Below, in pieces: positions 422-30,000 of a DNA stretch of 64,000 nt. The position numbers and the translations under genes are program-made. This stretch comes from Branchiostoma floridae (taxonomy: Eukaryota > Chordata > Leptocardii > Amphioxiformes > Branchiostomatidae). The stretch is from NCBI RefSeq assembly GCF_000003815.2, contig NW_023365793.1:30871-94870 (forward strand), read 5' to 3'. Under the pieces are notes generated by a model, which worked only from the letters and a program-made list of their open reading frames with translations, did no database searches and was not told where the DNA came from. The stretch's first letter is position 1. Each line of letters begins with the position of its first letter.

Positions 422-2645
422 CTGGAGATAATTCAAATAATTTTGTGTCTGTTAAAGCCTACTACTAAAGACGGAATGATTTTGACTAGGAGGAGTGTAA
501 TAGTTAGTACAGATTTCAAGACAATATTGTACTTGTGGCTGCATACTTGATGCTATTTTTCATGCAAAGTACACCCTTTGACAAGTCGCAAAATCGCATC
601 TCAAGAAAAAAAGAAAACATGTAATTATCCAAAATACCACATAGTAGAATTGTTTCCTTTATTGAGCCCCTTTGCTAATTAATACCATCAACTATTAAAT
701 AAATACCAATTTTAGTCGCAAAATGCTTACAATGGTTTAAGTGCAACGTTAGGTTAAGCCAGTAAATTTCAACGCAAAGCAATCATGGCGCAGGCAAGGT
801 TCTATGTGACGTGCAAACTCCATTGTTGAATTACGTTGGTGCCACCTATGCGGCTTATATAAAGTACATCCTATTTAAAGCGAAAAGACCTAACCTTGAC
901 ATGTGTGTTTGTCCGAGCTGAGTGCAAACCCACTATCACAGTTGCATCGGTAACTTCCCTCTGTGTTCACACAGATCTGAATACATCCACTGGTACCAGC
1001 AGAACATTCATCTGTGTCTAAAATATATCAATTTATGCAGCATTGTCAATGTCTCAGCTCTTCAAAATATTTTAAACAACATGATGGAAAATAGCAATGA
1101 TTAGTAGTTGTCAAATTGTGGTTTGAACGTCTGATTTGGTACATGCACAGTGATCGTAAACTTAAAATCCATGTAGGGTGCCTCTGCTAAATGATTGATA
1201 CCAATCAAAATTTCATTAGCATAAAGAACTTTCAAATATTTCCATATTTACCAGTAATCATAATTTTTTGTCAATTTTTATCAAAGTTTTGAAGTAAACA
1301 AAACAATTGTCGAGTATAAATAGAAGATAAATAATACCTGTACAGGTGTGTTTGTCCAAGTCCAGTTCGTATCCATCTTGACAGGAACAGAAATAACTCC
1401 CGTCTGTGTTCGAGCAGAGCTGACTACATCCACTGCTGCCGGCGGAGCATTCATCGATGTCTGTAAGTTTTAACATATAAAACACGCATACTTTCCAAAC
1501 GTGATTATATCAAAAAGAGATTACAGACCATACAGATACTACTTAACAGCTTCAAGTCTCCTGTAACCACGTCCATGTGATCTCATACTTTGGGTAAATC
1601 CTTACCCTTTTTTGACAACATTTGGCGTGTGCAAGTTGTCTAAGAACTTCCAAATTGCAAATCACAATATGATTGCAATATTACCTTTGCAGCCAGGTGT
1701 GAAGTTGTAGTTAGGTGAGCTGTACCCAGAAGGACATGGAATCTCTGTACCTATAGACAATAAAAATCACATTTTGACAGTTATTAATACATCTTCACGT
1801 ATTACTAAGTAAAACATAAATAAGTGTGGTATTTAATGGATTAAGAACTCAGGAATATTGTAATATTCCCAATTTGAAAATTTAAAAAAAAACTATGTTA
1901 TGTATGTCCCGGCTTAATTAGCCAGCAACTAACTTGGCACTCAAGGAACGACTAGAGAACAGCATCGAACCAGAGATGATTATTTTTACTATTTGACAAC
2001 AGGAATTTATTTCTGCATAGTCGCTCTTATCGAGAAAACCTGACAATAAAAGACCGTCCGTGTGGCCCAAGGTCAGTATTACTTTAACTCACCAGCACAG
2101 AAGGCGTAAGCACACTGGTGCCGTGTGTGTCCCAGCGCGTACACCAGGTAGCTGCTGCAGTTTTTCACGGCCACGTTAGTTCTCCAGGCACAACAGTCGT
2201 CAGTCACACCAGGTGAAACAAAATGGGCACAGCCGTTAGTCACGACGATCCCGTCGTTAGCTGAAGGGTTGGAGGTCAGGTTGAGCCAGACTGTGGTGTG
2301 TGTGCCGCATCGGTTGGCAGGAGGACATGTTAGGGGGATCTCGTTGCCTGGGGAGAAATGGCAAAGTTTTTTTTTAAAGAAAGCACAATGACTTACAAAT
2401 TAAACAGCAAGAAGTTCTATGTGGAGACAGGGTCTGAAATGAAAAGAAAAGGAATAGGCGTATGTATGCCTAAAAATTCTTACCTGCAGGACTGTCGAAT
2501 CTGTACCAACCGTAGGCCAGATTACGGTCACAGATAGGAGCCTGGTTTGTCTGGTAGACATGACCAACACTTCTGAGGGGTTCGTTCAGTACTGTGTGCT
2601 GCTGAGAATCACATGGGTCTGGACTGGGAGGTGTAGGCGTTGGTT
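294..2645 (-). CDS. Gene A: D8C-EGF-EGF transmembrane protein (span of visible exons)
   Basis: Six minus-strand exons (2645-2484, 2347-2093, 1750-1685, 1460-1338, 1017-895, 421-294) join in one frame, all internal junctions in phase 1. They encode a D8C domain (8+ cysteines, as in uromodulin, GP2 and OIT3), a 22-residue Cys-Pro module, two calcium-binding-type EGF modules, a single transmembrane helix and a tail ending at a TGA stop (296-294). Inferred role: a cell-surface extracellular protein with the N-terminal D8C domain outside. The first D8C exon opens in phase 1, so an upstream start exon is required. I found no convincing signal-peptide exon between 2646 and 4763. Either it is missed or lost, or the transcript uses the signal exon of gene B at 8937-8892, which has a matching phase. 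No zona pellucida domain is present, unlike uromodulin. Family assignment is firm; ligand and function are unknown. Confidence 0.82.
895..1017 (-). CDS. Gene A exon: EGF-like module 2 (calcium-binding type)
   Basis: A 123-nt phase 1-1 exon (acceptor ATTTTAG, donor GTTAGG). It reads [20 protein letters not shown], then a fourth to sixth cysteine, ending DKHTCQ. All six cysteines are intact. It has the same length as EGF 1, consistent with a tandem exon duplication. Confidence 0.82.
1338..1460 (-). CDS. Gene A exon: EGF-like module 1 (calcium-binding type)
   Basis: A 123-nt phase 1-1 exon encoding 41 residues. DIDEC opens the module, and it has six cysteines in EGF spacing (ending KHTCT). The D-I-D-E-C start and the aromatic after the fourth cysteine fit a calcium-binding EGF. 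Splice sites are TTACAG and GTATTA. Confidence 0.87.
1685..1750 (-). CDS. Gene A exon: 22-residue Cys-Pro module
   Basis: A 66-nt phase 1-1 exon (acceptor TCTATAG, donor GTAATA) encoding [20 protein letters not shown] followed by CK. It has two cysteines and a CP-x-G-Y/x-S-S pattern. Exons of the same length, phase and pattern follow D8C in genes B and C. Confidence 0.8.
2093..2347 (-). CDS. Gene A exon: D8C domain, second part
   Basis: A 255-nt phase 1-1 exon (acceptor CCCCAG, donor GTGAGT). It carries the rest of D8C: the [10 protein letters not shown] segment, the paired cysteines of DDCCAWR and the closing CAYAFCA. It differs from the gene B exon at five third-codon positions and at no amino acid. 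It is separated from the first part by an intron of only 136 nt. Confidence 0.87.
2484..2645 (-). CDS. Gene A exon: D8C domain, first part
   Basis: A 162-nt phase 1-1 exon after a CTACTCAG acceptor, ending at CTGCAG|GTAAGA. It begins with a Pro/Thr-rich linker (EPTPTPPSP) and continues into the D8C start DPCDSQQH, ending at [11 protein letters not shown]. The protein is identical to the matching gene B exon from DPC onward. Confidence 0.85.
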
Positions 2646-4763
2646 CTGAGTAGGGGAATGGTTTAAAAAAAAACCGTATAAACCAAAACAATGCCGTATG
2701 CACAAAAAACAGGATGTCAAGCTCATACTAAAAACCTGCTTTCGCTCTAAAACATTAAATTATCTATGGTTGAATAAAGCTAGTCCGGAAAATGCAGTTA
2801 AAAATATCTAATCTATGATATACAAAATATTCGTACAATTTGCTTACCAGTGTTTGCCGAAATCGCAGAATATCTATAGTAAGAGTTTGTTACCTGTAGT
2901 TGAATCTTTTTATTTGATTTTACGTCTATGTTTGAAAAATAAGCGCCTGTTACTTAAGTCATTGTTACAACATGTCAAGACAGAAAAAAATTCACTAGTA
3001 CTTTTGGTCAGGATCGCAAACAAGGTAAGGAGTTCAAAGTTCTTGTTTTTTTCACCCCATGAGCAAAGAAACGTAGAACCAACGTTGCAACATTCTCTTT
3101 TTGGCATGGTCTTAGCCTCATTACCCACACTTTGGGTACCTACTGGCTACAAAAATACACCCGAGAATATTATTATTATTATTAACATTCTATGACCTCT
3201 TAGATATACAGATAATATTTTTGAAAAACAATCACATGCATGCGTGTTTGTAAGTTCGAGTAAAATCATCGTCAGCGAATATTGTACGAATATTCTAAAA
3301 TTTTAAAGTAAAAGAACAATAGTCAGCTATCCTTTTGCTATTGGAATATTATCTACCCCCCTCCCCCCCTAGCTATTAAACTTGCTTAGGTTATACACAC
3401 GCTTGGAGTAGTTACTTTAGCAATTAATAAATTTTAATGTGTTGCGTAACAAGTAGTATTATATTGCAGTTAAGCGACAGCCTCAAATAATCCTTTTTAT
3501 CATTACACAATGTCTTTAGAATGTACAAATAATATAATATGTTCCTTCATCTTTATAACATTTGTTTTAAAAATATCAAAGTGCCTTTATATTCATTCCC
3601 AAGTCTTTTGTTTATAAAAAGAAAAGCACAAATTTATCAGGAACAGAAGAGACGGATGAGACAATGCTTTGACACTGCTTTTATTCATTTAATAAAAAAG
3701 TGTGTCTTTGAAAGCATACATTCAGGCGTATCTTGCTAAATCTAGTGCAAAGGCATTTTTTTATAAATAGGGTGTCTAACACACAATAGCAAAATAACAC
3801 AAAAGTGATATTATACAAAATAACTTTTTTAATATAAAAGCAACATCTTACATGAAATAACATTAGAAAACAAGTCAAACGTTTTCTGCCGTTTATTTTA
3901 ACTTATATCCTAAAGTCGAATGAACAAACAATACACTGGTTGCTGAACACATTTGTAATATGTAACAGGTTGTTTTCGGGTATTCGTTGCTAAAGAGTCT
4001 AAAATAACCAGGATAATCTTCCACATGCTAATAATTGAACCTAAGACATACCAAGCATGGCTCATTGTACAAAGAAACATATGCCATGTACCACCAACAC
4101 ACATAATCATACGTTCATGGCCTATATTAGGGTCAAGAGTTCAGGACTGTCAGGCAAAGTCCACATTATTTACAATTGTTTGTGAATACAAAGCATATGT
4201 TTACGAACAGACTCGAATGCAAACTTTATTTTCACACCCGTGCCATTATGATGCAGAAAGGTCCATAAACATTGTTAGCCACTGACTAAATTTCGGACCT
4301 TCTATGATCATGTTCATTGTTTTGAAGCTTTTCTAGTGTCCATTGTAGCCTATGTCGGCTATTGTCTAATACTTTTTAAGTTCTGATTCCGACACCTGTC
4401 TTTTTCTGAAAAAAAAAATGCAAACAATTAAAATACTTTTAAATTGAATATTGAAATACTAGAATGATTTCTTAGTTATATAGTAGCATCAAACTATAAC
4501 TAGCTAGAGGATGGTAGAACTGCAAATATAATGAACATATGTAAAAATCAAACATATGCTTGCCAATATTTTTAGCTTCCTTGTTTTAGTTTAATGTTGC
4601 ACATGTGAAAAATAAAGAATCAGAACGCAAGCTAAAACCTATCACAATTTCACTGCAATATGGTACATTTTTGAAACTCGTAAATAAGTCAACAAGGGTA
4701 AAACAAATGAAACTAAAGCAGTAAAAGTGACATCCAGATAAAAACACGAATAGGTAAATGCAA
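2646..4763. other. Spacer between genes A and B
   Basis: About 2.1 kb of AT-rich DNA between the first recognised exon of gene A and the stop of gene B. It should hold the 3' untranslated region of gene B and, if gene A is independent, its promoter and start exon. I scanned minus-strand ATGs for a hydrophobic leader ending at a phase-1 donor. None was convincing; the best, near 4025 (MWKIILVILDSL), lacks a usable donor in phase. Confidence 0.4.
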
Positions 4764-4867
4764 TTACCCTTTTCGACCATGCTTTAAGATGCACAAAGCG
4801 GAGACGATGATCAGGATAATCACTACGATCCCGGCCAACACTGACAGTAGAATAATCCACCATGGTA
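4764..4867 (-). CDS. Gene B exon 7: transmembrane helix and short tail
   Basis: After TACCTACAG, the phase-1 frame gives [20 protein letters not shown] then VSALC, a strong helix. The tail is ILKHGRKG and the frame stops at TAA (4766-4764). It aligns in position and phase with the gene A exon at 421-294, although the sequences have diverged. Confidence 0.8.
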
Positions 4868-7800
4868 CTGTAGGTAGAAATAAGGCATAGGGATTTACTG
4901 ATTATCCTATCAAGGAGTTTGAGGAGAACACTAACACAGTATGGATTTCAAGTTGATTGTTTTAAGGGCTTTGGTCAGAATCTTGGCTTAACCACCTTAA
5001 ATACCCAATGCGCAATATACATGTATAGACGTTCATTTGGTGTATAGAAAAAGACTGCTGAGTCTAAGACAGCGGAAACGAGAACACAGGACCGAGCGAC
5101 GTGGAAAAAACCTAGCGGAGAGAGGAAATGGGCCAGTCTCTGACCTAATAATTAAGGCAGGTAGGCAATACCCCAGCAGTTACGTTCATAGAATTTTTAT
5201 ATGTTGCCAAGAGAAACAAGCACTTTTGTTGTTATTCAAATATGAAAAAATATCTATTTACTTACTACTCATTTGATGAAAATAGGCCTACATCATGGTT
5301 AACAAAATTATGATTCAAGGTCAAATTTAATTATTCTGTTCCTGATGTTTTTGTTAAGCTGATATTTTTCTTTTAATTTGTAGGATATGCACGAGGATGT
5401 GGCCATTTTGACAATGGTGATTGATTAAGCATATTGGATACAACGACAAAAATTCAATGCTTTTATATCTGGTCATTATTGGACTTGAATTAAAAAACGC
5501 ATTGAAAAGTAAAATAGCAGCCAGTTTACCAAATAGGAAAACCTAAGACGAAATTCTATGATAGTGCAATAACGGCGTCACAAACTATGAATTATTGAAA
5601 GAAAACTTGCAAGAAATTGACATCTAATATTTACTGTGTTGCTTGAGCCTTATAACATATGTTTCTAATTTACTGGCTTTTGATTTAAACAATTGATTAA
5701 ATAGAAAATAGGAGTCTTTTGCTTTTAACTCACCAAAAATTATTGCCTAACAGGTTTGTTTAACAATAAAAGCCTGAAATGTGGTTATCGTGTAAATAAA
5801 ATCACAAATGGGCCTAAAATTACCTGCTTTTTATGTAGAATTCGAAATGTGGCGATAACTTCATGTGCTATTAAACTTTGTACATCTGTATTTAAGACAA
5901 ACACTCACAATTACAGCTGTATCCACCGGGAACGTTGACGCAGTTGGAATTGATGCCAGCACAGATACCGGCTGCACCTTCACACTCATTATTGTCTAAT
6001 GTTTATGCAAAAATGCATGAACAAAACAGGAAGAGATATTTGCTTTTGAAAACTCTAGTGAGTCAAACTAACATTATCTTCTTTATTAACTTAAGCAATA
6101 CAAAAAATACATTTAGTCAGTGGATATGTTTAATGCTGCTCAGACTGGTTCAATCGAGGAAAACATATTGAAATACAAAAGGCTAACATGGAGTTTGTAT
6201 GGTTCCCAAATTAAGTCATTTTCCGTTACTCGCATAAGGTAACTCCAGCATCATAAAGAGGATTAACAGAGTCGAGTCGCGACTATTCAAAACGTTTGAA
6301 AAGACGAAAAATAAAACAGCTCAAAATGATCAGAACGAAGAAAAAAATGTAACATTAAAAAGTTATCATATGTTTATGTTATGCTATGCCGACTTGCGTA
6401 TTCTACAAAAATAAACAATGAGTTTTCAATGGTGTAGGCGTAGCTATGTCATGCTTGGCTGTGAATTTGTAAACACTCTGCATTCAAAAAATTACCTTTT
6501 TGTAACTTTTCTAAGTGGCCAGAGCTACTTTATGTCACTGTTCAACCCATTTTGTCAGCCTTCTTTATTTCAACTAGACAGGTACGTGTATTTGTCACAA
6601 CGACATACAGGAACAAATCAGGAACCAATGAGCAGCCAAACGATCCATTGTATCTGGGTTAATTAATCTTACCTGTACATGTGTGGTTGTCAGGGCCCAG
6701 ATGGTAGCCATCATTACATCTACAGTAGTAACTTCCGTCTGTGTTTTCACAAAGTTGGCTACATCCACTCGTGCCGGTAGCACACTCGTCGATGTCTGTA
6801 AGAGTTAGACATAAGGGGTATTAATATACGGCAGTTGTTCTTTAGGCAAAGGTATGTTTTACTAGAACTGAACATTTATTGACAACTACTGTCAAATGGC
6901 TATTCAAAGTCAACATGAGGTAAATGTTAAAAGGTAAAAAAACGTCTGTAGTTATATAGAATTACATGCTTTTATATGTTAGTGTCAGATGAACATCATA
7001 TAACACATACCATAAAGGCAATCAGTCAGTGCTGTTACTTTATGGTGGGATATATCAAAAAGACGTATAAGACAATTTAAAGCCTACTAGATGCATAGAC
7101 ACGGGGTATACAGTCCCTCCGTTCACGTTGCGACAATGTGCTTTATCAAGGCACACAAAGGCACGTAGACATAAACACAAAGACAATCAAACACATGCAA
7201 ACAAACGCACGGGCACACAAACAGACAAACAAACGCACACACATTCAAGTAAAAGTCTGGAAACAATGTTACAATATTGAAATAGTATTACCATACCTTC
7301 GCAACCAGGAGTGTAGTCAGAGTTGGGTGATCCGTACCCTTCAGGACATGGGACCTCCGTGCCTGAAGACAAACGTTAATATTTCGTGTTTATTTGTGAA
7401 TCCTTTCGTATACATTTTGAATGATATGTATTGTCCATAATTGTAGCATGTAAAACGTAGACGCGTTTCTCAATTAGAAACATGCCTACCATAGTTTTCA
7501 CATCTAATGTTTTATCAGTATAAAAGAATCTTAGATTATAAAGGTATTTCCCACGCCAAAGTGCTGTTGCTTCATTGAGAGCCAATGAATAAAGCATGTG
7601 CATGTTATTGAAAGAAAGATCAACTCTTCATATCTGCATTAAAAACTAGTGTTCAAATAAATTGCAAGCCCAATTTTAGATTGATAGGTTCAACTCACCA
7701 GCACAGAAGGCGTAAGCACACTGGTGCCGTGTGTGTCCCAGCGCGTACACCAGGTAGCTGCTGCAGTTTTTCACGGCCACGTTAGTTCTCCAGGCACAAC

Positions 7801-8937
7801 AGTCGTCAGTCACACCAGGTGAAACAAAATGGGCACAGCCGTTAGTCACGACGATCCCGTCGTTAGCTGAAGGGTTGGAGGTCAGGTTGAGCCAAACTGT
7901 GGTGTGTGTGCCGCATCGGTTGGCGGGGGGACATGTCAGGGGGATCTCATTGCCTGGGAAGATAATATAAAAATTACATTATTGCGTAGTGAAAAGAAAC
8001 TTCTAATGTGTCTATCTTGTACCAATGTATTGCTTATGCATTACCACCTCTGCTAAATGCACGTCTTTTTGGGTCGGACAGTCGCGTTATCTTACTAGAG
8101 GCAAGGACTATATAGTTAAAATGCTTTTTGGGACGGAGACTTTTACCCACATTCCTGCCCTTCTACGAACCTATCACCTTTCTACAATAAACGTTTCCAT
8201 GTTCCTACAAGATATTCTATATGTTCTGTCAAAATATTTATTATTTGTGTATCTCAGACATATATCGATGTAAATGCCTGCTGAAAACTGATTGGGACAA
8301 AAAAGAGATGGCCAATATATTTCAACTTTTTATGAAGAAAAACCTGACAAGACATTTTAGAAGAAAGGTCAAGGGATATATGTGTACTGGCTCTTACCTG
8401 CAGGACTGTCGAATCTGTACCAACCGTAAGCTAGATTACGGTCACAGATAGGAGCTTGGTTTGTCTGGTAGACATGACCAACACTTCTGAGGGGTTCGTT
8501 CAGTACTGTGTGCTGCTGAGAATCACATGGGTCTGGACTGGGAGTAGCAGCAAGTAGCAGATCTGTAGCATAGTTTATGGACAGATGTTAGCGGAAGGTT
8601 AGCTTGATGCACAGCTGGTTTAATATAATGAAGCAATATGTTAATCTTCATTTGTCCTTTTTTATGGTCATTATATATTGGAACGAGTTATGGAAACAGT
8701 TTTGTTACCTTATTCGTTTAGTAATTCATGTCAAGTTGAGGTCACATCATAAACATATGTATGTTTAGAGATACAGCACCTTGCCTACATGTATTGTATC
8801 AAGCAATAAAACCTGCCATATTATTACAATGTTTTCAATTACATAATGTTATATCTACTAACATGATATATATAGATATAATCAGACGCACCTGTGACAG
8901 TTAACAGTGTAACTACGATGCAAAACAGAACAGCCAT
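4764..8937 (-). CDS. Gene B: D8C-EGF type I membrane protein, complete
   Basis: Seven minus-strand exons (8937-8892, 8562-8398, 7953-7699, 7362-7297, 6795-6673, 5995-5909, 4867-4764) total 846 nt, or 281 codons plus TAA. Every internal junction is phase 1. Layout: signal peptide about 1-21, D8C about 26-155, Cys-Pro module 156-177, calcium-binding EGF 178-218, a four-cysteine half-EGF 219-247, transmembrane helix about 251-275, and a tail of under 10 residues. It is inferred to be a surface glycoprotein-type receptor or adhesion molecule. D8C is known from uromodulin, GP2, OIT3 and VWDE, but this protein has no zona pellucida domain. It is tandem to gene A, whose D8C protein sequence is identical. 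It diverges head-to-head from gene C across about 3 kb. The start is chosen for its AAAATGG context and hydrophobic leader. No ligand can be proposed. Confidence 0.86.
5909..5995 (-). CDS. Gene B exon 6: incomplete EGF module (four cysteines)
   Basis: An 87-nt phase 1-1 exon (acceptor CATTAG, donor GTGAGT) reading [19 protein letters not shown] then [10 protein letters not shown]. This is the first two-thirds of a calcium-binding EGF, with the N-x-P-G-G-Y signature, but cysteines 5 and 6 are missing. Phase allows direct splicing to the transmembrane exon. A small exon with the last two cysteines could lie in 4868-5908, but I did not find one. Confidence 0.72.
6673..6795 (-). CDS. Gene B exon 5: calcium-binding EGF module
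   Basis: A 123-nt phase 1-1 exon. It opens [16 protein letters not shown] and closes DNHTCT, with six cysteines in EGF spacing and a D-I-D-E-C calcium-binding start. Splice sites are CTTACAG and GTAAGA. Confidence 0.88.
7297..7362 (-). CDS. Gene B exon 4: 22-residue Cys-Pro module
   Basis: A 66-nt phase 1-1 exon (acceptor TCTTCAG, donor GTATGG) encoding [20 protein letters not shown] then CE. It is clearly homologous to the gene A exon at 1750-1685 but differs at about 7 of 22 residues, in contrast to the unchanged D8C next door. Confidence 0.82.
7699..7953 (-). CDS. Gene B exon 3: D8C domain, second part
   Basis: A 255-nt phase 1-1 exon (acceptor TTCCCAG, donor GTGAGT). It carries [17 protein letters not shown], the CC pair and the closing Tyr-Ala-Phe-Cys. 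The 3' two-thirds of the exon are base-for-base identical with gene A, although flanking introns diverge within a few bases of the donor. Confidence 0.88.
8398..8562 (-). CDS. Gene B exon 2: D8C domain, first part
   Basis: A 165-nt phase 1-1 exon (acceptor GCTACAG, donor GTAAGA). A short linker leads into [20 protein letters not shown] and ends at [10 protein letters not shown]. From DPC on it differs from gene A at three third-codon positions, all silent. Confidence 0.86.
8892..8937 (-). CDS. Gene B exon 1: signal peptide
   Basis: The ATG at 8937 in context AAAATGG begins [15 protein letters not shown], a typical signal sequence, then splices at CACAG|GTGCGT after 46 nt (phase 1). The next exon continues [10 protein letters not shown], so cleavage probably falls near residues 16-21. 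Confidence 0.82.
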
Positions 8938-8940
8938 TTT

Positions 8941-9540
8941 CTTAGTGTAGGTCCCAAATGGTCCCAGTTGAGTCACAGCACTGTTCTCTAGTCTAGATAA
9001 AAATTAACTTGGTCCGTTTACACCCAGCAAAGAGGTGCACGCATAGGTCATGAAACCATGACAACCATTGACTGCGTTTGAAAACACTTCAATGGGTCTG
9101 TGGCGTGAGGGGCAAAGTGTTTCTGATGAATATGTATTGCTTAGTTTAACCTGTTTGCATATCTTTCTACCTAGGGAAGTTGGCAACAGAACTCACGTTA
9201 TGTTGACATTACGTTAAGCCCCCAACGTTGTACAAAGGATATTATTACCAAACAGATAAGAATGGAGAAATAAAGTTCTGTATTTATAGATGACTCATGT
9301 GTTGTGCCGTTGATAGGGCCGACACACAAAACGTTACTTTGTTTTTGTTCTAAGAATATTGATGACTCAGGTTCGGATTCACACTAACCCATGTCGACGG
9401 GAGGGGGCTTAAAGTGTCCGCTGTGTTTGAACAACAAGGCTGCAAAGATTCCCTATGAAACCGCCTTTTTACTAAATCATTTAGATCTTATCAAAATTCA
9501 TGTAACATTTATATGTGGCTACTTTAAGGAGGGCTAAAGC
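8941..9540. other. Upstream flank of gene B
   Basis: Non-coding sequence 5' of the gene B start. It presumably contains the promoter and 5' untranslated region, but no clear TATA box or initiator stands out. It ends at the stray minisatellite unit near 9541. Confidence 0.4.
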
Positions 9541-9597
9541 ACTATCACCGTACACTTGGGCGCTCGCTATGCAAGCATGCACAGGTGTGGGTCTTTT
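9541..9597. repeat. Single outlying unit of the 45-bp minisatellite
   Basis: The sequence CACCGTACACTTGGGCGCTC and a following GTGGGTCTT match the unit of the array at 10018-10500. It lies on the other side of the LINE fragment, so the LINE segment sits inside what was one array. Confidence 0.7.
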
Positions 9598-10017
9598 CTA
9601 TGCCAGATCCAAGTTTTAAAGATTGTCCATAAAGCCACAGTAACAGTAAAGGTTCTATTTTTCTGGTCTTTAGCAGTTATCAAATGATCAATTTTTCCAA
9701 ATAAAATCTCTTGCAAAGTAATTTTTATGTTGGGCAAGGGTACAAATGTGTTAACTAATTCCCAGAAATTACACAGTCTTTCACATTTAAAGAACATATG
9801 CTCACAATCTTCTATGCTTCCACTGCTACATAGTGTACATGTTGCATCATATATGTGTCCCGTTTCATCTTTGATACCCCATTTGTGCAGATTGTGTGCA
9901 CATGGTAATATTCGGTGTAATAGTTTGTAGTTTAACTCTGCTAACCTAGTGTCTATACAGGTCTGTGTGCTTAACCATCTCCAGATATTTTCCCAAGCCA
10001 GGGTTTCAGTAAGAGTC
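9597..10017 (-). mobile_element. LINE reverse-transcriptase ORF, 3' fragment
   Basis: On the minus strand one open frame reads ETLAWENIWRWLSTQTCIDT, then LHRILPCAHNLHKWGI, then a CTLCSSGSIEDCEHMFFKC segment. The W...L...ILP...L..WG and C-x2-C...H-x4-C pattern is the zinc-binding region near the C-terminus of non-LTR retrotransposon ORF2 proteins. Only about 140 residues remain and the reverse-transcriptase core is absent, so this is a 5'-truncated relic. The clade is not assignable by eye. Confidence 0.78.
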
Positions 10018-10500
10018 AGCAGGCGTGGGTCTTACTAGCACGTACACTTGGGCGCTCGTCATGCAGGCGTGGGTCTTACTAGCACCGTACATTTGGGCGC
10101 TAGCTATGCAGGCGTGGGTCTCACTATCACCGTACATTTGGGCGCTAGCTATGCAGGCGTGGGTCTTACTAGCACCGTACACTTGGGCACTCGTCATGCA
10201 GGCGTGGGTCTTACTAGCACCGTACATTTGGGCGCTAGTCATGCAGGCGCGGGTCTTACTAGCACCGTACATTTGGGCGCTAGTCATGCAGGCGCGGGTC
10301 TTACTATCACCGTACACTTGGGCGCTCGTCATGCAGGCGCGGGTCTCACTATCACCGTACACTTGGGCGCTCGTCATGCAGGCGTGGGTCTTACTATCAC
10401 CGTACACTTGGGCGATCGCTATGCAGGCGCGGGTCTCACTATCACCGTACATTTGGGCGCTAGCTATGCAGGCGTGGGTCTCACTATCACCGTACACTTA
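10018..10500. repeat. 45-bp minisatellite, about 10.7 copies
   Basis: Tandem copies of a 45-bp unit (core CATGCAGGCGTGGGTCTTAC then TAGCACCGTACA(C/T)TTGGGCGCT) with scattered substitutions (C/T, TAGC/TATC, GTC/GCT). Because 45 is divisible by three and the unit lacks stops in several frames, long open frames appear on both strands. They are a by-product of the repeat, not genes. Confidence 0.93.
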
Positions 10501-15000: not shown

Positions 15001-18000
15001 TTGAGCGGAGGGGGGCTGGGTGGCGTAATAACTTAAAAGGTTTTGGATGGATTTTCGTGGTTAATAGTTCTTGTCCAAGTCGTCAGAATCTACCAGCTCG
15101 CTTCCTTCACGGCAACCTAATGTCTGTTTTGAGAATTACTAGAGCTCGGTGACCTCATACCTCCATGAAATATTTAGAGCTTTAGTAAATTTCATGCAAC
15201 TGACTAACACATTAACGTAATTTATGCATGGTGTTGTTCATCATTGACAAACGTAGACATGTAACAATTAAAAAATTACCATAAATAAAGCAATTTGCAT
15301 TTTTTACATAAATTATGCAAATAGGTTGCCATTACCATATTAGGATTCTGCTTATATTCCACCTTTCATTATTAACAAGTGTTACATTTTATAGTCCAAC
15401 TGTTGCAAACAATGGAATTATACAATTTCCTCATAAATTATGAAAATCAAGTTCTCATTTGTATAACATGCATAACATTATTAACATCTTTGCCCAAGCT
15501 ACCTGCATGCCTAAAATGATGCCAATCCGTCAATCCTTTCTGCAGTTATCCTCTTTGTAATGACCTATCAAAATCGCCCTTGCAGTTCCGAAAGTAAATG
15601 TTAGGAGGCTAAAACCTACTCCACTTTGTCATGACACTGCAAACTATCTACTAGCTAAATTTCAAGACCATATCCCGTCCTGGACAAGAGATACATAGTA
15701 AAAAACTGCTATGATAGAATACTATCAAAAATTATACAAATGTAAGTCTATTTTGCAGAATTAGTATTCATTTTGTACAACATTATCTAAGGTATCCACA
15801 TACCAAAAATCATGAAATCCGTCGTTCCTTTTCTGAGTCTTCAGAAGCTTTTGACAAAAATGCCCCTGCTATCCCAAAACTAGACGCTAGGAGGCCCAAA
15901 CTAATGTCACTTGCTACATCCACTGGGAAGAGTGGTTTGAGGAGGGGCGGATATAGTTGCAGTATGGGCGTTATAATTTCAGTCAAAGCGGAAGCGGGAG
16001 GCACTCCATAGCATTGTCTTGTTGGTGGACAGGAGTACCCGGTTTCTAACATGCGCGGTCGATGCAAGTGAATACCAGGGTACATATATCCTTGATAGGG
16101 TTTCTACTGCATTCGTTCCATGCATAATAGTTGCATGCATGCTCATGACATAAAGATAATCAAGAAGAAAGCACCTTTAGCACCCGTAGATAGGGAGCTT
16201 GTTACTGCGTTATAAAAATTGTAATGTTCAGACATTGACACAAACTAGTAATATCTATTTTGAAATCCATAGACATCAGAAACTGTGAGTGTTGTAAAGC
16301 CCCCTTTACAAATCAAGAATTAGCTCGGCCGAATTGTCGGCGAGCTCCATATGGACATTTTCGGCCGGAGTATAACTAGAGCTTCGGGTGACTTTTTAAA
16401 GCTCATCCGTTTGGATTTAAACCCCCACGTGATATCAGTTGTGCATACAAAAAGCATAAAGGACAACCACTTGAACTTTCCGTGAAACACCGAGCCCCGT
16501 CTAATTTGTGACGAAGCATATTGTTAAAAAAATAATACAGCCGATGCTCGGGCGATGTTGAGATTCCGCGAGCTCTGACCGATCTACAAATTTTTGGCCG
16601 GCGTTCGCATGAATTGTAAAGCCGGCTTAATTAATATAACCAATATTCAGACCGGGGGGGGGCTTTTGAGGCCCGCGCTATTTTTGATGTCCTATAACGC
16701 CAGAACGGCTTACGCTAGAGCCACCAAATTTGGTGAGTTTTCCTAAACTATTCTTGACATCAATTTTCAGAAGTTTGACAAATTTAGACTTATAGGACTT
16801 AGAAGTGGAGGTCAACAACGACAAAGATGATACTAGTAGTCAGCAACCCTTCTGCTTCTTTAGAAAGTCAGAAAAACTGTACAGCGTCACTAAAACGGTG
16901 ATTTCTAGTCTTATAGGTGGATAACATAACCGTAGCAACCATCGTACTCATGGTGGTAACGTTTATTACAGAATCTGGCGACAGGCATAAACCACCTCAC
17001 ACAGCCTTCAAGATCAGTGATAGTAGCGATCTGACGTGATGGGTCAGAGGGCCTGCGAATAATAATTCTGGGAACTGAGTTGTCACATTTTTGGCTACTA
17101 TTTGAATTCTTTCTTTCTTCTCAGGCGACAACCACTTTTAGGGAGTGAATCCCACCCGTGGCTATAATAATCTTCTAATCCATTAACCAATACGAATGTT
17201 GTTGTGCAGCTTTTGTAAAACATTACAGGGGCTGTGGAATAATTAATGAACCAGTGATGTTCTCTATAATTTGCTCAATGTCAGGGCGTAAAGTCAGGCG
17301 ACAGCATTTCTTCATTTAAATGAGAACGACTCTATAGTCTATGGCTAGAAGTCAGGATGGTTGAGAGTAGATTAAAAAGAGTGTAAGTTACGTTAGGAAT
17401 ATGTTATCAACTGGTAAATATGACTAGAACAAAGTTAGGACATGGTTTTCAGACGTGTTTTAAAATTAGTCTGACTGGTCTTGACATGTCATTAACCACT
17501 GTTTACTAGTTGTCAGAAGATACGTAACATGGAATTAACACCAACTAAAAAGACCGACACTTGAGAGCAAATACAGGATATTTCAGCCATACGCCTTCAG
17601 TAGTATAGTAGGTGTACGCTGAGTCAGGTACGTACGAGCATATACCATCTATATGTACATGCAGTGAATCATTGCTTTGGAGTAGCTATACGTGTTGCAC
17701 CGGAGTAAAAACATTGCTCAGGAGTAAAATAAAACTGCTCCGGAATATGCTCCGGCGTAAATGAGTAAGTATATGTGTTGTAATAAGTTAGTATATTTGT
17801 CATGTACGTACGAACATATGACATATATATGTACATGCAGTAAATCATTGCTTTGGAGTAGCTATATGTATTACTCCGGAGTAAAAAAAACTGCTTCGGA
17901 GTAAAAAAAAACTGCTCCGGAGTAAAATAAACTGCTCCGGAGTAAAAGAAAACTGCTCCGGAGTATGCTCCGGAGTATGTGAGTAAGTATATTTGTTGTA

Positions 18001-21000: not shown

Positions 21001-24000
21001 CGAAACACTCGTCCGGGGATGCGGAGGCCTGTCGAGGCCAATGCCCGACCGTGCCGTCTACGTAATGTATGGGTAATCTATAGTGTCCTGTGTTATTGTT
21101 GTGGGTGTTGCTCTTGTAAGGCTAGCGGGATACGCCACTGTTTACGTACGGAAAGACCCGGCCTTTCTGCCGTAGGAGATATTGTGGTTGACCGTTCCAC
21201 TGGTGTTGTGACATTAAACGGATGGTCTAAGATGTCCTGTAGTATTGTAGTAGGTCTTGCCGTTTTAGGGTGTGGCACGCCACTGCCCACCTACGGGATG
21301 ACCTGAACGTTCTGCCGTAGGAGATATTGTGGTTGGCCGTTCCTGCTGGTGTATGACATGGCGGATGGTCTAAGTGTCCTGTAGTATTGTAGTATTGTAG
21401 TAGGTCTTATTGTTGTGAGGCTAATCGTTTCCAGGTCTCATCAATACCTACCTACATACCAAATATCAATACTATCCATCCAGGCGTTCTTAAGAATTAC
21501 CCGTCAAGTACCAGAATGACATTATAGCATTTTCTCGTTAATTATGCAAATTATGTCTTTATTTTGCATAATATGTATATGTTAATATTTTTCCCATTCT
21601 CAGTTACAAATGTCACATGGTGCAATGGTCCTATAATGGAACTGAGCGTGTTTACACGATTTCCTAATTAATTTATGCAAAATAGGTACCAATTTGCAAA
21701 ATTGACATGTCAATATATGAAGCATCACTTTAGGTATCTATACATCAAAAGTCATAACAATCCGTTAACTCCTTCTTGAATTATTCCCTTTCAAAGCCTG
21801 TCGTGCTTTTTTCAAAACAAGCCGCTAGGGGGCCCAAACCTACTCCACTTACACTTTATATCAACAGCTGTCTACCACTCAAAAATCAGAGCTCGAGCAT
21901 GTTCAGAACTAGAGATATCAAACCAGGAAGTTCTGCTGCAGTACCGTAAGGCTGCTAGGGGGCCCAAAATCTAATCGGTTCAAGATCTCATCAAGACCTA
22001 CCCACATACCAATATCAATGTCATTCATGTAGGCACTCTCGAGTTATGCTGGTCTGCAAAAGGGCCTATCGTTGATGGTGTTTGCCAGTCTGAAGACAGT
22101 GTAAAGTATACTTCAAACCCCTACAAGCGCCTGGTCCCAAAAAGTAAACATCTGGATTTCCTTTCACCATCAAGGCCAGATCAGGCAGCCTGACAAGAGA
22201 GTAGAGGGGCCAAGGAACGGTTCACTAATCCTTGCTAGTGGTACTCTCAAAGCAATATGAAAGCATGGTGTAAAAGTGTTGTGAGAACTATGCCTTTGTC
22301 CAAGTTAGAAATTTTGATGCATGCAAAATTGCATAAGCCATCGGTAAAAACAGTCCTTCCAACGCTTTAGAGACATGTAAAATTTTCGATGTTACAGTAT
22401 CATTTTCATAAGAAAATCTTGTATAACTAGAGTTCGGCGACCTCATACCTCCATGAATATTTAGAGCTTTTGTTTATTTCATGCAAATGACTTAACATTA
22501 ACAAGATTTATGCATGGTGTTGTTCATCATTGAATAACGTACAGTGCACATGTCACCAGTAAAATTCCCAATTCTAATCATTAATCATTAAGTTGTTTTG
22601 CCATTTTTGAATAAATTATGCAAAAAAGTTCCTCATTTGCATATTTGATATCTGCATATGTTCCACCGATTATAATTAACAAGTGTTACATTTATCGAAG
22701 TCCAGTTATTGCAAACAATGGAACTATACAATTTCCTCATTGATTATGCAAATTAAGTCCTTATTTGCATAAAATGAATATCATTATAATCATCTTTGCC
22801 TAAGCTACCTGCATACGTAAAATGCAGGCAATCCGCCGTTCCTATCTGCAGTTATCCTCTTTGGAGTGTCTTGACAAAAACGCCCCTGCAGTTCCACAAT
22901 TGAATGTTAGGGGACTGAAACTTGCCCCACCTTGCCATGACGCTAAAAGCTATCTACCACCCAAATGTCACGACCATATCACGTACGGGACAAGAGATAC
23001 ATTGAAAAACTGCTATGATAGAATATTCTCATTAATTATACAAATGTACTCCTATTGTGCATAATTAGTATTTTATCTTGTACAACATTGTCTAAGGTAC
23101 CTACATACCAAAAATCATGAAAATCCGTTGTTCGCTTCTTGAGTTATCCTCGTCAGAAGTTTTTGACAAATTGCCCCTGCTATCCCAAAACTAGACGCTA
23201 GGGGGCCCAAACTTATGTCATTTTTTCCTGACCACAAGAGCTATCTAATACTTAAAAATCTTGACCATAGCATGTTCAGAACACGGAGATAGCAAAACCG
23301 GAAGTTGCGCTGCAGTACCAGGCTCACACACCAGGGGGCCCAAAATTGACTTTGACCTTTGTCTTCCCAACCCCTACCCACATACCAAATATCATCGTAG
23401 TCCATCAAGAGGTTCTCAAGTTATACTGACCACAAATATGCTGACACACATAGACACACAGACACACACACAGACACACAGACAGAGACACTCAAAACTA
23501 TACCTCCATTTTTTCATGGAGGTAATCATCTCCTCTGTTGAACGAACAAGAAATAAGACCTATACTTATACAATTCTCACTGACTAAAAGGATTTTAGCG
23601 TGTGATTGCAGTTTTATGCTGAGTATTCTTGTAAATACAATGCATAACCATATATGATTTCTGTGTAATGTCCTTGTATATCTATATCAAATCTCTACGT
23701 TAGTTCTCTTCTGGCTTACGGTTGTGATCACATCAGACATATGTCAACAACATGACAATTCAAAATTAATCTTATGACCCTCAAAAACTATGGTTAACTA
23801 GAGTTCGGCGACCTCATACCTCCATGAAAATTAAGAGCTTTCGTAAATTTCATGCAATTGACTAACATATTAACATAATTTATGCATGGTATTGTTCATC
23901 ATTGACTAACGTACACATGTCACAATTATAAAATTCCCATTATTGATCATAAAGCAGTTTTTGCAATTTTTACATAAATTATGCAAATAAGTTCCTCATT

Positions 24001-27000
24001 ACCATATTTGGTATCTGCTTATATTCAACCTATCATAATTAACATGTGTTACATTTATTGAAGTCCAGTTATTGAAAACAATGGAATTATACAATTTCCT
24101 AATTAATTATGCAAATTTAGTCCCCATTTGCATAACATGTATATCATTATAAACCTCTTTGCCTAAGGTACCCGCATGCCTAATATTTTGCCAATCCATC
24201 AATCCATTCTGCAGTTATCCTCTTTAGAATGTCTTGACAAAAACGCCCCTGCAGTTCCGAAATTAAATGTTAGGGGGCTGAAACCTGCCCCACTTTGTCA
24301 TGACACTGCAAGCTATCTACCAGCCAAATGTTAAGACCATATCACATCCAGGACTTGAAAAAACTGCCATGATATAATATCCCAATTAATTATGCAAATG
24401 TACTCCTATTTTGCATAATTAGTATTTAATCTTGTACAACATTGTCAAAGGTACCTACATACCAAAAATCATGAAAATCTGTTGTTCCCTTCTTGAGTTA
24501 TCCTCGTCAGAAGTTTTTGACAAAAATGCCCCTGCTATCCCCAAACTAGACGCTAGGGGGCCCAAAGTTACGTCAATTTTTCCTGAGCACAAGAGCTATC
24601 TAATACCTAAAAATCTTGACCATAGCATGTTCAGAACACCGAGATAGCAAAACCGGAAGTTGCGCTGCAGTACCAAGGTCACACACCAGGGGGCCCAAAA
24701 TTGACCTTGACCTTCGTCTTTCCAATCCCTACCTACATACCAAATTTCATCGTAGTCCATCAAGAGGTTCTCAAGTTATGATGACCACAAATATGCGGAC
24801 ACACAGACACACACACACACAAACACCCACACAGACACACTCAAAACTATACCTCCATTTTATCGTGGAGGTAATTACAAACCACGGCGGGATGGACCTG
24901 ATATGTCAACATCGGCCTGCCATCAGTCGTGTCAAGGTTTGCACGATCCGTAAGGTTTCCAGAATACGTGAAGAAAAACACAACTTGTCTGGCCCATTCG
25001 ATGTTTTGGGGGAGGCAGTACACATAGAAAATTACAAGAAGTGACCTTGTGGCTTTGGCTTATGTCGCACTTTCTTTAATTTGCTGCAGATTACAAATTC
25101 TACATCTGATTAAGGACCTTGATGGTACTCGATAACAACACACAACACACACACACACGCCTACACCATCACCATCACTACCCCTACCACAACGGCACTT
25201 GCACTTGACGTGAATACATGCATAAGCCACGTGTGAGGAGTTTTGGTACGTCGGATGTGACGTGTGACATCTGTTGAAAGACATCACTCACTCACTCACG
25301 GCCCATAACCTCAGTGGTCGTAGTAATTAAACACATATTTGTTAAAAGTCTTAACGCAAAATTGATAGATCTTGCTGCCTGTGGCTTTATTACAGCCAGG
25401 AGTTACACAATCTGAGTGTTTTGGCTGTTATAACTTGCTTGAGATACCTGCTCGAGTACAGGACTACAACTTTACGTTCATTACCTAACGACGGGGCAGC
25501 TTCCAGCAGGATACTCGCCACGGATTTGGTCCCTTACAATATCCATCTTGTGAAACGATGGATAGTTTTTTTGTGGTAGCGGGAAAAAGAATTGTTCATC
25601 AAGATTTTGTGTCAGCTGTAGCACCATGCACTGTAGTCTCTTACTGCCATGGGAAAAGTTTGCGTTGGTTTTAAGTTTGCGGTGAAGTGGCCACCATAAA
25701 AACCGTGAACATACAATCATAGCGAACATTTCTGCATTTACAGTATTCTTCCTGACACATGCAGAAAATCTAAAGAGTAATCATCACATGGAATTACTAT
25801 TTGTGATAAGGGCTATCGGTGAGTATGTGTAATGTATTTGTCACATTGAGAAATAAATGAATAAACCTGTGTACCAACAATGTTTCTATTTTTGATTCTT
25901 AGAACCTCGTTTGTCCATAAACAACATTCAATGTGTTTCTGTATTTTTTTTAATCATTAGTCAACATCAACAGCATTTTGGAAGTGATGGCCATGCCACA
26001 TAAAATCGCCATCACAATGGTAGACTCCCAACCTACATGTCAGGGCGCCTTTTGCGATAAGTCACAATATGACAATTGAAAATAATTTTGGTTACCCTCT
26101 ACAACTATGTTCAACACATAATGTCGACAAACAGCAAGACTGGACAATAGAAACCACTGATTTGTAACCTACATTCCAGGGCATCTTCGAATATGTCACA
26201 ACATATGAATTGCTTCCATGATTGACATAATTTTAGGCATGCTGGTACCTTAGACAAAAGAAGCTGATGATGATATATATGTTATGCAAATGATGACTTA
26301 ATTTGCATAATCAAAGATGAAATTGTATACTTGTGTTATTTTCATTAACTGGACTTCATTAGACGTAACACATGTACATTATGATGTGTGGAAAATATCA
26401 ACTGTGCAAATGAAAAACTGATTTGTATAATTAATGCAAACAGACACACACACGCACACTTACACACAAACACCTTCAGCGCCCTTAAACATTGCTTTAA
26501 CCCATAACCTATACAAATCCACGTCGCCAGTGTTTAAAAAAAACGCTTTTTTTCTTTTTACTTCAGTTTCACCATAATACAAGGCTCACAGCCACTCATC
26601 CATGATGTGTTTATCACTGTACTATATTGCGATGTCAGGTGTTAACATTTGATTTGAAAAGTTCAAGGTTGTGCGCATCAAGAGGAAGCTTATTACATAT
26701 TACAAGGTAGGTCTAGGAAAATTAGCCTTCACGGTGCCAGTACCCGCTGAGGGGCGAATTATGGAAGAAGAAGGTTTACTTCAGTTCATGTTTCTTACTT
26801 CGGCGTAGGTCCCGTTACCCCTGCGCTTTACTCACACGTTTTGTCTAGGTACCCGCAGTTTAAATCCGAGTTTTTTTCACCCGTAATTTTGTCGGTAGCC
26901 CAGCTAGTTCTTGCTGTAACCTATGTGAAAGCATTTGTCCTTTTCTGCTACACCGCCCAAACAACGCTCAGCAGAGAGCTTCCCTCTTCGGCAGTTTGAG

Positions 27001-30000
27001 AAGACTGGTAGGATTTGATATGGACAATCTATTTGATGACACTTTAGTATAGTTGGTTTTTCATCGGCCATAAAAAACAAGATATGTAGAAGTTTACAAA
27101 CTTTCTTGATAGATACTAATCGCTTCAATAGCGACTAAACATCATTTTTCCAGTCTTAATGATTTTAGGTGGCACTTTAATCGCAGTTAGGTTATCCTCG
27201 AATAAACGGTGATGTGTGTTTTCTGTGGGTGGTAGGTGCTGCTGTGATTGGTGCTGCTGTAGTGGGTATCATATCATCAGTTCATCTTTTTGAATGTTCA
27301 TTTGTGAAAATTCCTCCAGTGCTTTGCTTATTTTGTTGTTTTCTTTGCTTGTATTTATTTACCCATGTACTTACTTTCTTTTAATAGCATCACTAATATA
27401 AGTTACGACTTGAGTGTGTCGCCACCATGTCGTGTAAATATATGTTGCAGTGCATGAATAAACAAAAGATAACAGTAGCAACATTCCCGACCACTTATAT
27501 TGTAATGTTTTTAATTACGAAGTAAAAGACAACTTCTTTTGGCCAGCTACTTCCTTTTGCACATCATTCCCGGCCCTTGGGATGGAGAGCGGCGCCATCC
27601 CTGATGACCACATCACGGCCTCCACCCAGGAACCTGGGTACGAGGCGTACAAAGGTCGTCTAAATACCGCCAGGTCGTGGCAGACATACACTGTAGACAC
27701 GAACCAGTGGCTGCAGATCAACCTCGGAAGTCAGAAGGTCCTCGCCGGTATCCAAACACAGGGCCAGTGGGGAGGGCACGTCAAGTCTTACAAACTGATG
27801 TACTCTGATGATGGCAATACGTGGGTCACTTACGGAGAGGGGCAGAACGACACGGTGTGTTGACAAGGCATTAGTGAATGAAAAACGATTTTCTTTGTAG
27901 ACACCTAAGTTCTATAAACAACCCACAACCGATGTTACGGTGACCGTCTATCAGCTTCCCCAGGGTAATTCTGACGGGTTTACATTACACTGCAGTGCAG
28001 TGTCGATGCTTACAGATGCGATCCCAAACGTGAAATATCTACATATATACAAAGATAGCTAATGTAGTCTACAACGTGTGTTATGATCAACGCAGTGTAA
28101 CAATATTAAGTATCAACTACATATACGTCTTAAGCAGCGACACCTATGCTGCAGTGCAATGTGAACAAGTCAGAATTTCCTGAGGAAGGTGACAGTCGGT
28201 CACCGAAACGTCGGTATGATACAGCACTTGGTATTCAGTGGCTTACTTACCTGGTGAAACTATTCCCAAAAGGTGTTTTTGAGTTTTCTGAGATTCCTTA
28301 ATCGTCCATGGCTATTTTGGTAACCATCCAATGCTTTGTATACCACCAGAAATACACTTATACAATATATTGAACCTTTTTAGATATTTGATGGCAACAG
28401 TGACGGTTCTACCATAGTGAACCAGATTTTGACCACTCCAGTGATGACACAATATGTCCGAGTAAACCCACAGTCCTGGCAGGGTACGCTCTTCATCCGC
28501 CTACGAGTGGAGCTACTTGGGTGCGAAAGTGAGTAATCGTGCGGGTATCAACTGTTATGTACAGCACTGAATGGGTCTCAACTTCATGTACTAGACTTAG
28601 TGCTCTAAAGGCAATGTTGATTCAATTCAACATCCTCTGGGACTGTCAAAACTGATACAAGCGTGCGAAATAGATTTACATAATAGCAGTTAGAGTCCAT
28701 TCCAAGTCACCATGAGGGGTTTTAGGTGATGTTTGTAATTAGTCTGAATTATTTTGAAAAAAGAATATCTGAGCCACAATAATTAATTTTTTTTCAAAAA
28801 ATTAACTAAGAAAATACTCATCTATTTGAATTCCTTTGAATATTTTAGAAACATTTTGAAAGTCACTGTACAGAAATGTCTTTATTTAGAATAATTGTGA
28901 AACCTCTGTGTGATTATTTTACATTTACAAATATTTGCAAACTTTGCCAAATGGTAAAATTAGTTTATTGCCCCTATAAAAGTAAGCCCTATTGTTGCAT
29001 CTGTATATTTTTAGATTTCACTGCTGGGTACTGGTGGATCCTTTGTAATGGGCCATTGTTGCATGGCACCCAACCATACTTTGCAAGGATGTGTGATTTG
29101 CTATCTTCCCAGCCCACTGAACCATTTACAAACTAGAGTTCGGCAACCTCATACCTCCATGAATATTTAGAGCTTTTGTTAATTTCATGCAAATGACTTA
29201 AAATTAACATGATTTATGCATGGTGTTGTTCATCGTTGAATAACGTACAAAGCATATGTCACAAGTAAAATTCCCAAGTCAGATCATTAATCATATGCGC
29301 ATTAAGTTGTTTTGCAATTTTTTGCATAAATTATGCAAATAAGTTCCTCATCTGCATATGTTCCACTAATTATAGTTAACAAGTGTCACATTTATCGATG
29401 TGTCCAGTTATTGCAAACAATGTAATTTTACAATTTCCTCATTAAGTATGCAAATTAAGTCCTCATTTGCATAACATACATATCATTATGAACATCTTTG
29501 CCCAAGCTACCTGAATACCTAAAATGCACGCAATCCATCGGAAATCCAAATCTGGATTTCTTCCGAAAATAATTTCATCAGGTTGGTAGAATATAGGATA
29601 TATGAGAATCCTTTTGCACAACCAAAATTTGACTTACTTGCTGACGTTTCGATGTCTGTCAGACATCTTCCTCAGAGCTTCTAACTGGAGTTCTGCTTCT
29701 CGCCGCTATATGTAGCCGATGTAGGTGGCGCTTTTGCGGCGAGAAGAACACTATTCCAAACGTGGCTCAGCTTGTACCCCCCTCGTCCCGGTTCATCACT
29801 GGNNNNNNNNNNNNNNNNNNNNNNNNNNNNNNNNNNNNNNNNNNNNNNNNNNNNNNNNNNNNNNNNNNNNNNNNNNNNNNNNNNNNNNNNNNNNNNNNNN
29901 NNTACCGTTTGGGATAGTGTCTTCTCGCCGCAAAAGCGCCACTACATCGGCTACATATAGCGGCGAGAAGCAGAACTCCAGTTAGAAGCTCTGAGGAAGA

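Follow-up and report, generated by a model that had tools for sequence, protein, structure and literature searches.

Conversion between paralogous genes has been described in several animal systems, which are cited here from excerpts of the papers concerned. A review of Caenorhabditis relates that such conversion is usually reported for exons, since introns diverge and may drop below the homology needed, and that pairs lying head to head or tail to tail can convert (PMC3966223). In the zebrafish NLR-B30.2 genes, silent divergence indicates that exons or domains of one family were homogenized along different sets of partners (PMC4852459), and in the lancelet VCBP2/5 cluster, with introns variable among alleles, conversion was briefly inferred for VCBP 5b (PMC2632668). 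The present analysis concerns two copies, A and B, of the D8C domain in a 64,000-nucleotide stretch of the Branchiostoma floridae genome (the window; contig NW_023365793.1, abbreviated C235, of which the window is C235:30871-94870; coordinates without a prefix are those of the window). The two copies encode the same protein sequence and differ at silent sites alone, whereas adjoining modules and introns have diverged. Repeated short ectopic gene conversion, confined to exons by the loss of intron homology, is the best explanation, with a probability of roughly 0.8.

The likeness to Caenorhabditis lies in near-identical coding parts, diverged surroundings and grouping within the genome; worm conversion often includes introns, however, and the lancelet case excludes them save for a few bases at one splice donor. 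The zebrafish family comprises nearly 400 genes with positive selection on B30.2, in contrast to four repeats and a nearly frozen domain here. VCBP2/5 resembles the present case as a lancelet gene cluster with inferred conversion, but encodes V-type immunoglobulin and chitin-binding domains and is partly hyper-polymorphic. The process is already known, and the lancelet case is clean rather than new; among titles and beginnings of abstracts in the literature on conversion, concerted evolution, exon shuffling, D8C, uromodulin and Branchiostoma, no paper on the evolution of lancelet D8C genes was found.

All exons of A and B lie on the minus strand, and the D8C exons have GT-AG boundaries and phase-1 joints. 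The exons of both copies are given here with synonymous (silent) divergence per site as dS.

2484 to 2645, minus: copy A exon 2 (GT-AG, phase 1), an 8-residue linker and the first 45 D8C codons; 132 of 135 D8C bases as in B.
2348 to 2483, minus: copy A intron within D8C, 136 nucleotides (nt); similarity to the 444-nt intron of B undetectable.
2093 to 2347, minus: copy A exon 3, remainder of D8C; 250 of 255 bases as in B, the final 196 identical.
1685 to 1750, minus: copy A exon 4, a two-cysteine module of 22 residues, 7 of them different in B.
1338 to 1460, minus: copy A exon 5, EGF_CA (PF07645); dS 1.25 against B and 0.24 against A' (see below).
895 to 1017, minus: copy A exon 6, a second EGF_CA; dS 0.04 against A'.
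310 to 421, minus: copy A transmembrane exon; dS 0.03 against A'.
1 to 17, minus: start of the last coding exon of copy A, which continues beyond the window; the open frame ends WRQVSETELRKF.
8892 to 8937, minus: copy B exon 1, signal peptide of 15 residues (leader MAVLFC...); the homologous B' leader exon is C235:104614-104659.
8398 to 8562, minus: copy B exon 2 (model), linker and first part of D8C.
7954 to 8397, minus: copy B intron within D8C, 444 nt (exon model).
7699 to 7953, minus: copy B exon 3 (model), remainder of D8C.
7297 to 7362, minus: copy B exon 4, the 22-residue module; silent sites against B' saturated (13 of 15.8), an unconverted yardstick.
6673 to 6795, minus: copy B exon 5, EGF_CA; dS 0.13 against B' and 1.25 against A.
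5909 to 5995, minus: partial EGF exon of a short form, in B only; B' counterpart not found.
4768 to 4867, minus: transmembrane exon of the short form, in B only; B' counterpart not found.
4366 to 4405, minus: last coding exon of the short form to its stop codon, in B only; the 293-residue open model ends KRQVSESELKKY.

Counted from the DPC motif onward, the D8C copies of A and B differ at 8 of 390 coding bases (0-based positions 77, 101, 104, 140, 152, 161, 164 and 194), and all eight differences are silent and all are transitions. The proteins are identical (130/130; dS 0.094 and dN, the replacement divergence, 0 by NG86), as the initial annotation of this DNA had stated. The divergence it described in the next 66-nt module was likewise found: exon 4 has dS 0.87 and dN 0.20, with 7 of 22 residues changed, and EGF exon 5 has dS 1.25. 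Under conversion, silent sites in the tract should have diverged far less than those of the homologous exons beside it, and dS is 0.094 for D8C and 1.08 for exons 4 and 5 pooled (Fisher p = 7e-9). The identical 3' stretch of the second D8C exon is real, though it measures 196 bases and not the 175 first counted, the last difference falling at exon base 59. The silent changes, said to cluster on one side, instead straddle the splice junction, with 3 among the final 59 nt of exon 2 and 5 among the initial 59 nt of exon 3; they span 118 nt of spliced message, and randomly placed silent changes would occupy so narrow a span with a probability of 0.001. Contiguity in message order is what would be expected if a spliced and reverse-transcribed message of one copy had repaired the exons of the other, skipping introns, and the homogenization of both D8C exons without the intervening intron fits as well. 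A and B nevertheless did not exchange EGF exon 5, which lies two introns beyond D8C, and the splice donors considered below bear further on this RNA-templated form of conversion.

A search with exon 3 of A against the genome (513,431,437 bases in 431 contigs; one genome throughout this work) placed the best four of four matches on C235. An inverted second pair lies on the plus strand of the same contig, 65 kb off, with the exons of B' from C235:104614 to 109671 and those of A' from 110335 to 112950; the exon 2 counterparts are C235:110335-110496 in A' and C235:104923-105084 in B'. (A start of B' exon 2 at 104922 was rejected on account of 27 stops, against none for starts at 104932, after AG, or 104920, not after AG.) All six D8C pairings among the four copies have dS of 0.07-0.13, with at least 126 of 130 residues identical. 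Other exons are uneven: between A and A', dS is 0.04 in exon 6 and 0.03 in the transmembrane exon, and between B and B' it is 0.13 in exon 5 and saturated in exon 4.

Four copies allow a test of each exon, which may follow the gene, uniting A with A' and B with B', or the locus, uniting A with B and A' with B'. Of the 19 variable sites in D8C, 5 group by locus, 1 by gene and none in the third way, the remaining 13 being 12 single-copy changes and one three-state site. EGF exon 5 gives the opposite picture, with 25 gene sites and none of the other two kinds (Fisher p = 3.5e-5 for the contrast with D8C), and exon 4 has 3 gene sites, none by locus and 1 of the third kind. Variable sites at which A equals B amount to 11/19 in D8C and 11/60 in exons 4 and 5 (p 0.002), and those at which A' equals B' to 12/19 and 11/60 (p 0.0004). 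In tree tests (IQ-TREE, K80), the locus tree was preferred for D8C as a whole, the gene tree having p 0.025 in the approximately unbiased (AU) test, and 0.010 for the exon 2 part alone; for exon 5, the gene tree was preferred and the locus tree rejected (AU p 5e-9). The tree of the tract thus conflicts with that of its flank, as conversion predicts, although the Kishino-Hasegawa (KH) and Shimodaira-Hasegawa (SH) tests reach only 0.056 for D8C. At the start of exon 2, the linker still appears gene-specific, A going with A' and B with B', so that a conversion breakpoint would lie inside exon 2, about 20 nt in. A GENECONV-type permutation of D8C with exons 4 and 5 (79 variable sites, six pairs), a check that the initial annotation had proposed, had a divided outcome. 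The pair B-B' was significant after six-pair correction (P 0.0001, corrected 0.0006), with the run in exon 5, while A-A' gave P 0.027 (0.16 corrected), three pairs including A'-B' exceeded 0.3, and A-B fell short once corrected.

The initial annotation had also entertained very strong protein constraint, by which old D8C copies would have remained identical without any exchange. The A/B identity of 130/130 and the minimum of 126/130 in all pairings of the four copies agree with this, as does the alignment of the ten D8C cysteines with human GP2. Silent sites are not protected by such constraint, however, and yet dS drops to 0.094 from about 1.1 next door; nor would constraint lead site patterns to track locus rather than gene. 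The same domain in a further, diverged copy serves as a control:

32776 to 33174, plus: copy C, a diverged D8C in a single uninterrupted frame, serving as an outside comparison; 56 of 127 aligned residues as in A, PF23283 E=3.2e-13.

Between C and its relative C' (C235:180124-180513), 97 of 131 aligned residues are identical, with a dS of 0.88 and changes at 20 of 45 fourfold sites, from which it follows that in this family the silent sites of D8C can change freely. Protein constraint alone is insufficient for the D8C identity, and as a full account it is very improbable. Selection at the nucleotide level, fixing silent sites through RNA structure, splicing or codon use, would explain why D8C dS is low in all six pairings (0.07-0.13), but the freedom of silent sites in C and C' contradicts it and locus grouping is not among its predictions. 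Folding of exon 3 of copy A, the one exon so analysed, showed RNA no stabler than its shuffles (z = +0.96, with 170 of 200 shuffles at least as stable), and this explanation is hardly credible. As a separate observation, C and C' lack the intron by which D8C is divided in all of A, B, A' and B', implying a gain or loss of an intron within the family.

Intron divergence close to the splice sites, another claim of the initial annotation, was upheld: A-B identity ends 6-7 nt beyond both donors, and the local alignment scores of the four A-B introns lie within the range of 200 shuffles each, the nearest to significance being intron 4, matched by 3% of shuffles. Over all pairings, 23 of 24 intron comparisons were unalignable (40 shuffles each), including 8/8 of A-A' and B-B', the sole alignable one being the first 38 nt of intron 3 in A'-B'. 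The introns of A and A', and of B and B', are mostly unequal in length. The 136-nt introns of A and A', aligned without gaps, match at 47/136 positions; shuffled sequences average 41 matches, and 109 of 1000 did as well. An A-A' match of 581 columns (87%), considered as a shared intron 2, was rejected as two exon matches bridged across the intron.

How far introns must diverge to look like this was gauged by simulating 4 introns, with 300 simulations per point, the indel:substitution ratio of lancelet haplotypes (0.98% to 4.39%; PMC4284660) and a mix of indel lengths chosen by the author. At the silent divergence of the exons (d = 0.035 or 0.094), simulated introns stay alignable: for every one of the 4 introns, 0/300 simulations scored as low as the actual intron or lower. 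Scores like the actual ones become probable only from 0.4-0.6 per site upward, in contrast to silent divergence of 0.03-0.1 in several exons that these introns separate. Lancelet haplotypes are reported to differ by 4.39% single-nucleotide polymorphisms and 0.98% small indels, in highly heterozygous genomes, and lancelet species split for 100-130 million years have virtually no intron similarity at 79.5% mean coding identity (PMC4284660). Because introns are unalignable while exon dS ranges from 0.03 to saturated, the duplications appear to be old, and the exons of low dS to have been refreshed singly. A recent duplication with replacement of all introns, or else an artefact of haplotypes or assembly, might be suspected from that heterozygosity, from two 100-N gaps in the window and from a stretch of 5,046 N between the pairs. 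Allelic introns should nevertheless stay alignable at haplotype divergence, as the simulation supports, whereas 8/8 comparisons within A/A' and B/B' were unalignable, and a single recent origin does not accord with exon dS from 0.03 to saturated within those same pairs; such an origin is most improbable. Between the two causes considered at the outset, the evidence supports conversion over constraint, by way of the conflict between locus and gene in the second pair, the dS of 0.88 between C and C', and the divergence of introns relative to exon dS.

At the donor of exon 3, identity enters the intron by 12 nt for B-A' and B-B' and by 16 nt for A'-B', and in A'-B' 16 of the 20 bases after the sixth are identical. 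Only the six exon 3 pairs stood out among 30 homologous donor pairs checked, and the longest run among 201 control pairs of donors from different exons was 6. Among acceptors, the A-A' transmembrane exon is conspicuous for a run of 10 nt. As 12-16 nt of intron 3 are common to B, A' and B', in three of the four copies, and no spliced molecule could have brought these bases along, an RNA template is unlikely, and it is also at odds with the introns retained after exons 2, 3 and 4 in the models of all four copies; together with the unexchanged exon 5, these findings leave RNA-templated conversion an outside chance, though a better one than either selection or artefact has.

Several findings weigh against DNA-level conversion as proposed here. 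Exons of 66-126 base pairs (bp) amid unrelated introns are short substrates for ectopic repair, and a DNA mechanism does not predict that the A-B differences should be contiguous in message order. Locus grouping of D8C depends on just 6 informative sites, and three of the five locus sites fall within 5 nt (positions 8, 11 and 12) and may record one event. The gene tree of whole D8C has p = 0.056 in both KH and SH tests, the exon 3 part alone favours neither tree (AU 0.68 v 0.47), and for exon 4 alone, where the gene tree is preferred, the locus tree is not rejected (AU 0.08). In the GENECONV-type permutation, the A-B value of P 0.014 becomes 0.08 after six-pair correction and is not significant, and that of A'-B' is 0.31. 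A 7-nt acceptor run also lies beside the unconverted A-B exon 5, so that short overhangs are weak proof by themselves, and all comparisons come from one genome.

The proposed course of events for exon-confined conversion would be as follows. A and B would be two repeats of D8C, in strict terms D10C with its ten cysteines, and would most likely belong to a single D8C-EGF gene anchored in the membrane. Its old duplicate (B', A') lies inverted at a distance of 65 kb, and both duplications would be old enough for the introns, exon 4 of B/B' and exon 5 of A/B to have become saturated or nearly so. Afterwards, short non-crossover repair would have copied pieces between repeats; since pairing would be possible only in exons, tracts would end inside exons or a few bases beyond a splice site. 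Among the donors for D8C would be the adjacent repeat at its own locus (A-B and A'-B' exchange), and the EGF and transmembrane exons would have paired with their counterparts in the inverted copy (A-A' and B-B' exchange). The exons presumably stay pairable with the help of purifying selection at the protein level, although selection for identical D8Cs would not be needed. Tracts of about 100-200 bp are suggested, with edges probably set by homology length and intron heterology. Published non-crossover tracts in lancelets average 99 bp, with 90.9% under 200 bp (PMC12500494, in excerpt), and fit exon-sized exchange.

The initial annotation treated A and B as two genes. The D8C copies are real, but their assignment to separate genes is doubtful, and they are probably two D8C repeats of one gene with a short alternative end; for B' and A', a single gene is still more strongly indicated. 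Leader exons are present at B and B'. A search for one at A gave three weak phase-1 candidates, or 32 with any GT allowed, none convincing, and four candidates at A', all weak; a transmembrane exon was searched for at B' and not found. Exons 1-5 of B joined to the model of A remain open for 511 amino acids to a stop, and B' joined to A' for 494 amino acids to the end of the transmembrane exon, the EGF exon of B' and exon 2 of A' being 663 nt apart. The one-gene reading follows from these open joined frames, from the lack of a convincing leader at A and A' and from the search for a transmembrane exon at B', which found none. A homologue of the last exon of A was sought downstream of A' and not found, the one match, of 11 nt, being at chance level. 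With small EGF, transmembrane and last exons of its own, B yields the 293-amino-acid form. In the 511-residue model, Pfam recognizes two D8C_UMOD and three EGF_CA domains, and no ZP domain.

D8C_UMOD (PF23283) is matched by A with 31.3 bits, against a curated cut-off of 27, and by C with 50.1. A WLN-x-T sequon, aligned with GP2 WLNGT, is kept and presumably corresponds to UMOD N232. All ten cysteines (10/10) align with human GP2 (7p6r alignment, E = 1.4e-16), and on that ground the unit counts as a D10C domain as PMC8930769 uses the term; the cysteines and the sequon are its likeness to the D8C/D10C of uromodulin and GP2 (PMC8930769, in excerpt; PDB 7p6r, 6tqk). In those proteins, GP2 N65 and UMOD N275 carry the high-mannose glycan to which FimH binds (PMC8930769). 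The lancelet protein differs in that neither position has an N-x-S/T in A or B (by the author's residue count on the GP2 alignment), and in being, as predicted, membrane-anchored with EGF_CA repeats. As neither FimH-glycan position is a sequon, a FimH decoy role is unsupported at the residue level, as judged from sequence.

A wider survey of about 242 kb of the contig yielded 34 low-copy pairs that were at least 85% identical; 16 belonged to the A/B family. From the other 18, seven were tried by hand: two were dropped for unequal lengths, two (Z and U) were repeat-like and three (X1, X2 and Y) were plausible exons. C235:18771-19103 pairs with 179164-179496 (dS 0.12, no Pfam hit), and C235:19300-19593 with 178538-178831 (dS 0.45, with Fibrinogen_C barely over the cut-off); these adjacent exons (C235:18771-19593 and 178538-179496) form an inverted duplicate without intron similarity, a second candidate for exon-limited conversion. 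In the third pair, 43561-43837 (C235:74431-74707) matches C235:191657-191933 at 89% identity, with dS 0.34 and a PKD-like match far below the cut-off; beside it are two weaker matches (76% and 72%). The 60 nt of flank displayed could not be aligned for any of the three pairs, and comparison of the regions recovers the exons plus the weaker neighbours of the PKD-like pair. The A/B family and these three pairs, a small and hand-picked set, have in common a moderate to low dS, uneven between exons, and unalignable flanks, which speaks for a general pattern.

Other features of the window were noted in passing. A tandem array at 10014-10499, with a 45-bp unit in 10.8 copies and 91% matches, lies 1.1 kb upstream of the B leader exon, is open in several frames on both strands, and has a stray unit at 9540-9579. 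Segments 29591-29762 and 29906-30075 form a 96% inverted repeat across a 100-N gap (29803-29902), either a palindrome or an assembly fault. A dispersed repeat family, probably a transposable element, occupies 15135-15912, 22424-23526, 23795-24875, 29131-29536 and 47747-48309, with main matches of 71-87%.

Where non-homologous introns fence off conversion, adjoining exons of one gene can have different genealogies; dating such duplications by coding dS can mislead, and an identical domain beside diverged neighbours is no proof of selection. Duplicated genes in this genome may as a rule undergo concerted evolution exon by exon, a tentative suggestion and more doubtful than not. If it were true, each exon would be its own recombining unit choosing its partner copy, and a gene would have as many histories as exons. 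The genome would then act as a natural assay, with exons as small as 66-126 bp, of the smallest homology that ectopic repair requires; if the pattern were general, this minimum could be measured in a chordate for which direct measurements of conversion tracts exist.

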